IMG/VR virus record: IMGVR_UViG_3300050011_000113
Location: 1-26,195 of that record
Source of the DNA: a virus
Direction: 5' to 3' (one strand)
DNA length: 26,195 nt
Under the pieces are notes generated by a model, which worked only from the letters and a program-made list of their open reading frames with translations, was not told where the DNA came from and did not search any database. Shown piece after piece: positions 18,578 through 26,195 of the stretch; the first letter of the stretch is position 1; the number at the start of each line of letters is the position of its first letter. The translations under genes and the position numbers were made by a program.

Positions 18578-18886
18578 GTGATAAACCATCCCAACCGCAG
18601 CAAGAAAAATGTCGAACGGGCCGTGCTGGTGACAACCTCTCACCGCGGCGTGTTTTTCGGCTATGCAACTGAGACTGACGGCGCGACAATCAAGCTCCGC
18701 GCTGCACGAAACTGCATCTATTGGTCGGCCGACGTTAAGGGCTTCCTCGGTCTTGCATCAACTGGCCCAACTAAAACCTGCAAGATCGGACCAGCCGCCA
18801 ACATCGACGTTCGCGATATTACTTGCGTTGCGGAATGTCTGCCGCAGGCCGTCGCAGCGTGGGAGGCAGCGCCGTGGACGCGATAA
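18578..18886 (+). CDS. DUF6948-like small phage protein
   Basis: About 102 residues from a GTG at 18578, which is preceded by AGGAGAAGG, a strong ribosome site. The pattern ERAVLVTTSHRGVFFGYATE, then LRAARNCIYWSADVKGFLGL and GPTKTCKIGPAANIDVRDIT, matches my memory of the DUF6948-type small phage proteins, in which a conserved 'GVFFG...AR..WYWSGA/SADV...L...G.....I' runs through a beta-rich fold. Function is unknown for the family. The frame also reaches 18551, but that start lacks support. It overlaps the next gene by 13 nt. Confidence 0.78.
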   Translation: MINHPNRSKKNVERAVLVTTSHRGVFFGYATETDGATIKLRAARNCIYWSADVKGFLGLASTGPTKTCKIGPAANIDVRDITCVAECLPQAVAAWEAAPWTR

Positions 18887-19476
18887 TTCTTAGAGGCAAC
18901 GCACCTTACGGCTACGGCTCCGGCTACGGCTCCGACTACGGCTACGGCTACGGCTCCGGCTACGGCGACGGCTACGGCTCCGGCGACGGCTACGGCTCCG
19001 GCGACGGCTACGGCGACGGCTCCGGCTACGGCTCCGGCTCCGGCTCCGGCTACGGCTCCGGCTCCGGCTACGGCGACGGCTACGGCTCCGACTACGGCTC
19101 CGGCTACGGCTCCGACTACGGCTCCGGAGAGTATTGGCTGTCCGCCGTCGACTATCTCGTGGTGAAGTGGCCCGAGAGTATCCAAAAGAGATTTGCCGAG
19201 ATTCTCGCGCTTGGGGTAACCATCGCGTTCTGGCGATCAGACAAGAATGCTCTACCGGCAAATGGTGGCAAGAAGATCGAACCCGCAGCGCCGGGCGTTA
19301 TTCACACCGCGCCCGGCCCGCTCAATCTCTGCCATGCCGGCACATTGCACGCCACGCTATTACCGCCGAAATGGAAAGGCGAGCGATGGTGGGTTGTGGC
19401 CTTGCACGGCGAGGTTATTGGCGACGAGGAAAAATATGGCTGCCTCAAACGCGAAATCATTGCCGAGGCTTTATGA
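18874..19476 (+). CDS. Protein with Gly-Tyr/Ser/Asp repeat arm and conserved C-terminal phage domain
   Basis: A 200-residue protein from a GTG at 18874, with GGGAGG about 7 nt upstream. Residues about 12-86 are a low-complexity arm made only of Gly-Tyr, Gly-Ser and Gly-Asp dipeptides, plus a few Ser-Asp. The rest is a folded domain: EYWLSAVDYLVVKW, then KRFAEILALGVTIAFWRSDK and LCHAGTLHATLLPPKWKGER with WWVVALHGEVIGDEEKYGCL, which matches a recurrent phage domain often linked to such arms (my recollection, no database check). Function is unknown. The gene ends with an ATGA overlap with the next. Confidence 0.75.
   Translation: MDAIILRGNAPYGYGSGYGSDYGYGYGSGYGDGYGSGDGYGSGDGYGDGSGYGSGSGSGYGSGSGYGDGYGSDYGSGYGSDYGSGEYWLSAVDYLVVKWPESIQKRFAEILALGVTIAFWRSDKNALPANGGKKIEPAAPGVIHTAPGPLNLCHAGTLHATLLPPKWKGERWWVVALHGEVIGDEEKYGCLKREIIAEAL
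18910..19127 (+). repeat. Tandem hexanucleotide array (GGCTAC / GGCTCC / GGCGAC)
   Basis: About 218 bp made almost entirely of the hexamers GGCTAC, GGCTCC and GGCGAC, with a few CGACTA junctions, in the coding frame of the preceding feature. The units encode Gly-Tyr, Gly-Ser and Gly-Asp. Such arrays can change length by slippage, which here would keep the reading frame because each unit is two codons. Confidence 0.9.
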
Positions 19477-19691
19477 ACAGCTGCCCTACATGCGGCCGGG
19501 AATACCCGCCCAAGATCGTTGTGCGCGGCATTATCCGGCAACGGATCGTGAATGCTTTGGCCGCGGCACCGGATGGCCTGAGCCATGCACGCATACGGAC
19601 CCATAGGCGACATGCCCAAACATCACGACTACCTGTTCCTAGCCGAGATAGGCCGGCGCCTGACCGCCAAACGGCAGGATATGGGGTTTAG
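19473..19691 (+). CDS. Possibly truncated zinc-knuckle / HTH-type protein
   Basis: A 72-residue frame whose ATG overlaps the previous stop. It begins MNSCPTCGREYPPKIVVRGI followed by RQRIVNALAAAPDGLSHARI, which is the N-terminus of a common phage family: a CxxC knuckle, then a helix 'R..IV.AL...P.GLS...I'. After about residue 46 the sequence is Arg/His-rich and lies over the start of the next gene in another frame, so the family's C-terminal part is missing. It looks like a shortened or frame-broken copy that still supplies the zinc-knuckle end. Confidence 0.48.
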   Translation: MNSCPTCGREYPPKIVVRGIIRQRIVNALAAAPDGLSHARIRTHRRHAQTSRLPVPSRDRPAPDRQTAGYGV

Positions 19692-19860
19692 CCAACAGGC
19701 GGTCGCGGACGCGTCCGGGCTTACGCCCCAGATGCTGTCGCGGTATGAAATGGGCTTGGCAGACCCGCCGCTGTCCACGCTGATCCGCATTACCGCCGCG
19801 TTGCAAATGTCGCCTATGGCGTTGCTGATGCAGGCGGCAGTACTTTCGGAGCAGGACTAA
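19612..19860 (+). CDS. XRE-family (Cro/CI-type) helix-turn-helix regulator
   Basis: An 82-residue regulator. LFLAEIGRRLTAKRQDMGFS followed by QQAVADASGLTPQMLSRYEM, then PPLSTLIRITAALQMSPM, is the canonical five-helix XRE domain with recognition helix around TPQMLSRYE. The ATG at 19612 begins close to the first helix and is preferred; the earlier ATG at 19585 would give a 91-residue form. Likely a Cro- or CI-like repressor dimer acting at early operators. The gene overlaps the next by one base. Confidence 0.85.
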   Translation: MPKHHDYLFLAEIGRRLTAKRQDMGFSQQAVADASGLTPQMLSRYEMGLADPPLSTLIRITAALQMSPMALLMQAAVLSEQD

Positions 19861-25297: not shown

Positions 25298-25584
25298 CAA
25301 TGCAAATCATCTGCTTCGTGATCGGCATGTGGGTGGGTGGGTTGCTTGTCTATTTTCACCGCTCACGAAATAGCACGGGGCCAGTTGTGACAAGATTAGC
25401 AGGCTACTTCATGGCTCTTTCCCGACGCTTTAACTCCCGCTCGACGGCCTTCCGGATGAGGTCGGCCCGCTTTTCGCCGTCCCCGAGGGCCGCGTCTATG
25501 CGCTCCATGGTCCCAGCCGGCAAACGGGCCGGAATTTGCTCGAAATTGACCTGTTTTCTGCCCATAGGGCCAGAATATACATGA
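25294..25584 (+). CDS. Membrane peptide running antisense into RHH repressor gene
   Basis: The first part, MTMQIICFVIGMWVGGLLVY then FHRSRNSTG, is a convincing membrane segment with a basic flank, and the ATG overlaps the previous stop. The frame stays open to 25584 (96 residues), but from about residue 38 it runs antisense to the repressor gene at 25404-25565, where the Arg/Pro-rich sequence is probably incidental. The membrane part is likely real; the true C-terminus is uncertain. Confidence 0.42.
   Translation: MTMQIICFVIGMWVGGLLVYFHRSRNSTGPVVTRLAGYFMALSRRFNSRSTAFRMRSARFSPSPRAASMRSMVPAGKRAGICSKLTCFLPIGPEYT
25404..25565 (-). CDS. 53-residue ribbon-helix-helix (Arc/CopG-type) repressor
   Basis: The minus-strand frame MGRKQVNFEQIPARLPAGTM then ERIDAALGDGEKRADLIRKA and VERELKRRERAMK has RHH architecture: a beta-strand (VNFEQIPARL), helix A (AGTMERIDAALG), a Gly-rich turn and helix B (RADLIRKAVERELKRR). 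Dimers of such proteins bind palindromic operators through the paired strands. A perfect inverted repeat starts 16 bp upstream, and the predicted transcription start coincides with the ATG; no ribosome site is seen, so the mRNA may be leaderless. It likely represses itself and the rightward genes from 25647. Confidence 0.8.
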   Translation of the reverse strand: MGRKQVNFEQIPARLPAGTMERIDAALGDGEKRADLIRKAVERELKRRERAMK

Positions 25585-25621
25585 TATCACCTATTGACAA
25601 GGGCAAAATAGGTGATATCAT
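25572..25621. promoter_or_regulatory. Divergent promoters overlapped by a perfect 15-bp inverted repeat operator
   Basis: ATGATATCACCTATT (25581-25595) and AATAGGTGATATCAT (25607-25621) are exact inverted copies, separated by 11 nt. Plus promoter: TTGACA (25594-25599), 16 nt, TATCAT (25616-25621). Minus promoter: TTGTCA (25600-25595), 17 nt, TATTCT (25577-25572). The -35 hexamers overlap, and the right arm covers the plus -10 while the left arm lies within the minus promoter spacer, so a bound dimer would block both. Confidence 0.8.
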
Positions 25622-25646
25622 CTACCCATCAAAACGGGAGACGGAC

Positions 25647-25865
25647 ATGACCAAGAATCAGCCAATCACCTACACCTTCACCAAGGGCATTTTCACCATT
25701 TCCGTCCATGCCCAGAAGGGCCTCATTCGCGAATCCATCCGCAACTCGGATGGTCGCGAACTTTCATATCAAGCCTTTCGCAGTTCATGCGCGTCTAATC
25801 GCGATCTCGTTACCTCTTACGCGGAGGGCCGCTTGGCAGACCTTGCGCGGAGCACCCACGTATGA
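25647..25865 (+). CDS. Hypothetical protein under RHH-operator control
   Basis: A 72-residue protein, MTKNQPITYTFTKGIFTISV with a beta-hairpin-like N-terminus (TFTKGIFTISVHAQKGLIRE) and a helical second half (CASNRDLVTSYAEGRLADLA). GGGAGACGG precedes the ATG at 25647; the frame reaches back to 25536 but the operator lies there, so the later start is right. No family is recognised. It is the first gene of the rightward unit controlled by the operator. Confidence 0.7.
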   Translation: MTKNQPITYTFTKGIFTISVHAQKGLIRESIRNSDGRELSYQAFRSSCASNRDLVTSYAEGRLADLARSTHV

Positions 25866-26029
25866 GCACAGATGATATGCACCTAAATCGCGCCGTCATC
25901 TGCGAGGGTTGCGCGTGGGCAGGCATCAATGGCGAACTTATTGCCAAGGACAAACTGCGCTGCCCTAGATGCGATGGCGATCAAATTCACTACGTGGGAG
26001 TAGTTGATGCGCCGCCCGGCGTGCAGTAG
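25862..26029 (+). CDS. Zinc-ribbon small protein
   Basis: A 55-residue frame, MSTDDMHLNRAVICEGCAWA then GINGELIAKDKLRCPRCDGD and a short tail. Two CxxC pairs (CEGC and CPRC), about 20 residues apart, form a classic zinc ribbon. The ATG overlaps the previous stop (ATGA). Such small ribbons in phages may bind DNA or host transcription proteins; the target is unknown. Confidence 0.62.
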   Translation: MSTDDMHLNRAVICEGCAWAGINGELIAKDKLRCPRCDGDQIHYVGVVDAPPGVQ

Positions 26030-26056
26030 CCGATTCATAGAGTGGGAACAAGGAAG

Positions 26057-26195
26057 ATGCGCGACAGCATTGCAGAGGCGCTAAAGCCTTTTGGATACGA
26101 GTGGCTAGTTTCGGCGACAGGCATCTCTGGTCCAGGTAGTCTTATAGTCGTATTCGCGGGGCCGGGCGACTTTTACACGGCCTGTCTGACTCGCG
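26057..26195 (+). CDS. Hypothetical protein, runs off right edge
   Basis: A frame of at least 46 residues, MRDSIAEALKPFGYEWLVSA then TGISGPGSLIVVFAGPGDFY, open at the window end. A GGGA/AAGGA-rich stretch lies just upstream of the ATG. Too little is visible for a family call. Confidence 0.45.
   Translation, partial: MRDSIAEALKPFGYEWLVSATGISGPGSLIVVFAGPGDFYTACLTR

Follow-up and report, generated by a model that had tools for sequence, protein, structure and literature searches.

The window, that is, the whole 26,195-nt stretch of viral DNA analysed here (IMG/VR record IMGVR_UViG_3300050011_000113), carries at its right end a short minus-strand gene and a run of small plus-strand genes that diverge from a shared intergenic region (Table 1). 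The ATG-started 53-aa ORF described in an earlier note on this DNA is present in the ORF list of the window, and the exact 15-nt inverted repeat reported beside it was also recovered, with arms at 25581-25595 and 25607-25621 and an 11-nt loop. There is no other perfect inverted repeat (minimum arm 12 nt, maximum loop 60) in the 26-kb window, and the longest arm among 12 shuffled windows, one of them shortened, was 12. The sequence TGATATCA occurs at two places only in the window, both of them at the repeat.

The earlier note took the repeat for one perfect 15-bp operator. Its arms are not half-sites, however: each falls within its own 18-bp quasi-palindrome, and relatives carry two to four such units. 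The repeat is better read as two predicted 18-bp operators, ATA-N2-TGATATCA-N2-TAT, than as one, and it looks like a single large inverted repeat because two neighbouring units are each nearly palindromic. Putative promoters for both directions lie where they had been proposed, but their -35 hexamers cross the boundary of the left arm, so the loop does not contain them entirely. Promoter-like sites numbered three in the window, against 1.0 expected from shuffles. The minus-strand -10 hexamer ends 6 nt before the repressor ATG, hence a leaderless start is plausible; the predicted start site falls at or next to the ATG.

Table 1. Features at the right end of the window
Feature	Position	Strand	Observations
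53-aa ribbon-helix-helix protein, MGRKQVNFEQIPARLPAGT...	25404..25565	-	ORF, NF041551 score, fold matches, 112 distinct relatives; Q10, P12, and R14 are the predicted DNA-reading residues; G2-R3 arm conserved
Putative repressor promoter, TTGTCA-17-TATTCT	25600-25572	-	9/12 consensus matches
Predicted operator O2, ATAGGTGATATCATGTAT on the minus strand	25577..25594	-	Occupies the spacer between -35 and -10 in the repressor promoter; adjoins the plus-strand -35; similarly placed unit in relatives
Perfect 15-bp inverted repeat, 11-nt loop	25581..25621	.	O1 and O2 facing each other
Putative divergent promoter, TTGACA-16-TATCAT	25594..25621	+	11/12 matches; TG before the -10
Predicted operator O1, GTAGATGATATCACCTAT on the minus strand	25608..25625	-	Covers the plus-strand -10 hexamer
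Divergent operon gene 1, 72 aa, ORFan	25647..25865	+	GGGAG precedes
Divergent operon gene 2, 55 aa, zinc-ribbon-like, two CxxC pairs	25862..26029	+	Weak matches only
Divergent operon gene 3, cut by the window edge	26042..26195	+	100 aa in L001

The first divergent gene, at 25647, has no significant Pfam or PHROG family, and a link to DUF1398 was rejected as a probable coincidence (E 0.057, far below the cut-off, and absent at E 0.001). In contig L001, which encodes an identical repressor, the operon runs about 3 kb past the window edge: gene 3 is followed by about eight more small ORFs in the same direction, and none of the nine downstream L001 ORFs matched PHROGs (0/9). Elsewhere in the window, positions 18850-19190 hold a long run of short repeats, an unusual low-complexity region of which one frame is Gly-Tyr-Ser rich (YGSGYGDGYGS).

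A family of small ribbon-helix-helix proteins

The window protein is a member of the ribbon-helix-helix (RHH) family. It scores 34.0 bits against NCBIfam NF041551 (YlcI/YnfO family), above the curated cut-off of 30 bits. In an AlphaFold2 model of the 53-aa protein (mean pLDDT 88), residues 19-26 and 33-52 form helices, and the strand is not formed in the monomer. The fold matches of this model were RHH proteins only (ParD, Reg576, and NikR; Z 2.5-4.6), with the ParD antitoxins as the best of them, which bears out the RHH assignment in the earlier note. A remote relative, L040, exceeds the Pfam RHH_1 cut-off; together with the model and its fold matches, this points to the strand-helix-helix domain of ~45-50 residues that marks the RHH superfamily. 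For the second hallmark, alternating strand residues that read the DNA major groove, the one line of evidence is covariation, in which columns 10, 12, and 14 came out on top.

A homology search had been expected to return Arc/CopG-type proteins. Instead, a Pfam search with the window protein gave no match, PHROGs returned families of unknown function (phrog_949, E 6.5e-5), and only the remote relative reached RHH_1; a DNA search of the locus against phages found nothing. Nor was the gene overlooked, as had been claimed: databases list its relatives as hypothetical proteins or as YlcI/YnfO family members, and the window protein itself passes the NF041551 cut-off. None of these names comes with a known function, and the literature we searched, which included few subscription journals, contained no description of the function or operators of this family.

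By scanning viral contigs and bacterial species genomes, and adding annotated phages, we assembled 112 distinct usable members. Their carriers are temperate phages and plasmids, mainly of Alphaproteobacteria, the class to which most of the named hosts or sources belong (Sinorhizobium, Caulobacter, Methylobacterium, Bradyrhizobium, Sphingobium, and Bosea). G2 and R3 were identical in 112/112 members, though the membership rule required both; they were also invariant in an alignment of 28 members chosen without that rule.

A Shine-Dalgarno-like motif was absent from 106/112 repressor genes, and the -10 most often ended 7-9 nt before the start codon in the 43 scorable family promoters. The leaderless start suggested for the window gene is therefore probably general across the family. 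The repressor gene was monocistronic in 96/104 loci (no same-strand follower within 80 nt) and commonly faced a convergent gene. In both StopSmel (OR786374; L161) and L313 (1965-2001), the gene is annotated as starting within the operator region, ahead of the conserved and probably leaderless MGR start; in StopSmel the two starts, at 876 and 912, are 12 codons apart. Start sites of genes of this family are thus probably misannotated repeatedly.

Operator arrays across the family

A search that assumed no motif found a 14-mer repeated with at most two mismatches in 82/94 upstream regions, compared to 2/60 shuffles. The registered unit is 18 bp long, ATA-N2-core(8)-N2-TAT. Almost every relative has 2-4 copies in front of its gene, often starting ~106, 88, 63, and 28 nt ahead of the start codon. 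Because the script that assigned the registers favours ATA/TAT ends, part of the flank conservation is a product of the method, and the register is wrong at a few loci. Relatives carry direct as well as inverted copies of the unit. The comparison of operators among related phages that the earlier note had called for thus yielded units built alike but differing in their 8-bp core (CGATATCG, TCATATGA, CGGGGACG, CGGTACCG, GTACATAC, and more), with at least a dozen clearly different natural cores. Asymmetric cores such as CGGGGACG and CGATTGCG do not fit one symmetric dimer.

In seven phage records (~300 kb), the operator pattern was found at the repressor promoter only, and the reversed control gave zero matches; control therefore appears to be local. 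Five phage contigs carry paralogue pairs (L310, L311/L312, L304/L305, L306/L307, and L308/L309), and cores differ in 4/5 pairs. Orthogonality of paralogues as a rule was rejected, since the cores of the G036 pair, which also shares its strand residues, are identical.

Strand residues and operator cores

Differences in the core accompany differences at residues 10, 12, and 14. The window type, Q10/P12/R14, goes with TGATATCA, D10/Q12/R14 with TCATATGA, P10/L12/R14 with CGATATCG, and R10/T12/P14 with GTACATAC. Further pairings are E10/K12 with CGGGGACG, P10/Q12 with CGATACCG or CGGTACCG, M10/G12 with CGTTAACG, and N10/N12/T14 with cores of the GTACAT type. Within the R14/P4 subfamily, CGATATCG was found in 30/32 members with Leu or Val at position 12 and in 0/32 with other residues. 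A pair that comes close to a natural swap is L104 and L203, which are 90% identical: Leu12 is changed to Gln, and CGATATCG is changed to CGATACCG.

To rank the positions, we scored every variable column by the operator difference seen when that column differs, among pairs of proteins with similar helices. The columns most tied to operator difference were 14, 12, and 10 at a helix identity of at least 0.55 or 0.6, and columns 10 and 12 led the ranking at 0.7. These are alternate strand residues, as an RHH reading would predict. When the core was taken from the member with the most similar strand triple, excluding neighbours of helix identity of at least 0.6, residues 10, 12, and 14 predicted it within one mismatch in 47% of cases, whereas the opposite strand face did so in 18% and the 33 helix residues in 5%. 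Shared ancestry was controlled in these residue-core tests, though not fully removed. A tree-based independent-pairs (sign) test on supported branches had one usable pair, the 33 columns of the helices being too few to resolve the tree. Column 34, at the start of helix B, also followed operator type, leading a partial ranking and coming fourth in another; this residue may touch the backbone or may mark a subfamily.

Among loci fetched later, 4/5 with a precedent fit the residue-core pairing: Pam5 phage (K12, CGGGGACG), an element of S. meliloti pSymA (L12, CGATATCG), a plasmid of Methylobacterium (Q10/P12, TGATATCA), and one of S. americanum (N10/N12/T14, GTACAT type). The misfit is a protein from an Azospirillum plasmid, whose arm is altered. 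L317 breaks the rule, having D10/V12 yet AGATATCT. Taken with the arrays, the pairing amounts to strong comparative evidence that the protein would bind these sites and repress both divergent promoters.

Regulatory model, alternatives, and precedents

The 53-aa protein is very probably an autoregulating RHH repressor that acts through O1 and O2, and this upholds, at the level of sequence, the earlier proposal of an operator at two divergent promoters. One dimer, possibly two, would bind each 18-bp operator. Strand residues 10, 12, and 14 would read TGATATCA at its centre through the major groove, and the flanking ATA/TAT would probably be contacted by the conserved Gly-Arg arm at the N-terminus. 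Where the operators lie implies that both promoters are repressed: occupied O2 would block the repressor's own leaderless promoter, while occupied O1 would cover the divergent -10 and keep the 25647 operon of small accessory genes off, which agrees with the control of that operon proposed in the earlier note. On entry into a cell that contains no repressor, both promoters would be active at first and then close as repressor accumulates. The simplest reading that joins these observations is a short burst of accessory-gene expression on entry, which we rate as an even call; such a pulse would parallel Reg of p576 (PMC8708921) and the Aca proteins (PMC9410906).

Three other readings of the locus were weighed. 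The repeat might be a hairpin, a terminator, or a host-factor site with the small ORF unrelated to it, and it could indeed fold as RNA from either strand. Yet a hairpin predicts neither direct and inverted copies in numbers of 2-4 nor a core that tracks the strand residues, and a search for a terminator-like site at the repeat found none; the covariation of protein and operator already largely refutes this reading, to which we attach next to no probability. That the protein is an orphan or degenerate type II antitoxin, with an RHH domain acting on its own promoter, would suit both the ParD matches of the model and the autoregulation known from RHH antitoxins. We consider it very unlikely, because the 53-aa protein has no C-terminal toxin-binding tail, a same-strand follower that could be a toxin in the same operon lies within 80 nt in only 8/104 loci, and the divergent genes are unrelated across 74 loci, leaving no conserved toxin.

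A lysogeny (immunity) repressor, whose core diversity would reflect superinfection-immunity groups, is somewhat less improbable, though still unlikely. The range of operator specificities here is striking and resembles that of immunity repressor families, and an integrase is present in 10/16 family records tested. Against this, StopSmel, a transposing phage, encodes a separate c repressor, the window carries an HTH_3 repressor-like gene at 19585-19857, and the operator is confined to one divergent promoter pair. Shared specificities also speak against immunity groups, since two paralogues in a single phage share their core, and L110 and L112, two prophage contigs of one IMG genome, have a core in common; plasmids, moreover, bear the cassette beside parA-parB.

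RHH autorepression is textbook knowledge (Arc, MetJ, and antitoxins). Arc and Mnt of phage P22 are RHH repressors of ~50-80 aa in which alternating N-terminal strand residues set specificity, and Q9, N11, and R13 of Arc are the equivalents of residues 10, 12, and 14 here; unlike this family, they have other operators and another regulatory role, and there is no detectable kinship beyond the fold. We know of no general recognition code for RHH proteins. The nearest precedent for specificity is SmpO of the staphylococcal pWBG749-family plasmids, an RHH protein with GNNNNC sites in which F7K switches specificity (PMC8136818). As appears to hold in our family, an N-terminal residue sets specificity, central bases vary between subtypes, and there are two sites per region; however, SmpO serves oriT and conjugation and has five site types, whereas the sites here lie at promoters and their natural cores are many more. 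The R14 classes with G-NNNN-C cores fit the SmpO geometry, while the D10/Q12 (C-NNNN-G) and P14 classes go beyond it.

Reg of p576 is a small RHH autorepressor on a mobile element, with establishment genes expressed transiently on entry (PMC8708921), and our model matched its structure (6gyg). Its operator is a dual TTATCCC heptamer and its regulon comprises several promoters with conserved ardC (PMC8708921), as opposed to one divergent promoter pair and unrelated cargo here; the architecture of the family would nevertheless fit an establishment regulator of this type. The Aca repressors, small phage repressors that precede operons of variable small ORFs (PMC9410906, PMC11065993), resemble this family in heading such operons; they are helix-turn-helix proteins, whereas the family has the RHH fold and no helix-turn-helix. 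E. coli YnfO/YlcI (DLP12 and Qin prophages) share the NCBIfam name but have neither the MGR (GR) arm nor an operator array, and the different N-terminus and lack of such repeats led us to reject ynfO/ylcI as a model case. The E. coli ynfO/ylcI genes lie near DUF1398 genes (L272, 6757-7458; L273, 9185-10446).

RHH autorepression and specificity switches by strand residues (Arc/Mnt, SmpO, and Reg576) were hence already known. In the literature searched we found no account of natural diversification this wide in so small a protein, nor of the cassette design. Only tentatively, and as less likely than not, do we advance a broader view: that in these ~50-residue phage and plasmid repressors the operator is largely predictable from three strand residues, a natural RHH code, and that the repressor forms a portable head before exchangeable entry or anti-defence genes. 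Each core adjoins the protein that apparently reads it and three positions carry most of the difference, so such a code is testable. The model also offers a function for a family, akin to phrog_949 and YlcI/YnfO, that lacks annotation, and small repressors with distinct sites could be usable as parts. If the broader view is true, the repressor gene could mark entry or anti-defence genes, as aca genes do, and the divergent operons are flagged as candidates.

The divergent genes, mutually unrelated across the 74 loci, are yet preceded by similar ribosome-binding regions, a likeness partly built in by gene calling that preferred starts with an RBS-like motif. This suggests that the regulatory head is kept while cargo is exchanged, i.e., a portable "regulator plus cargo" cassette. 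When 138 divergent-operon proteins were searched against Pfam, PHROGs, NCBIfam, and PADLOC, the only ones to stand out were three cytosine methyltransferases, some HNH nucleases, and one integrase; the NCBIfam scan recognised no anti-CRISPR family, most acr genes being without a model. Entry or anti-defence genes are candidate cargo. On the sphingomonad plasmids L315, L318, and L320, which have sites of the TGGTATC type, a family member is divergent from the partition operon parA-parB and lies beside a gene for a single-stranded DNA-binding protein; the cassette therefore appears to serve plasmids too.
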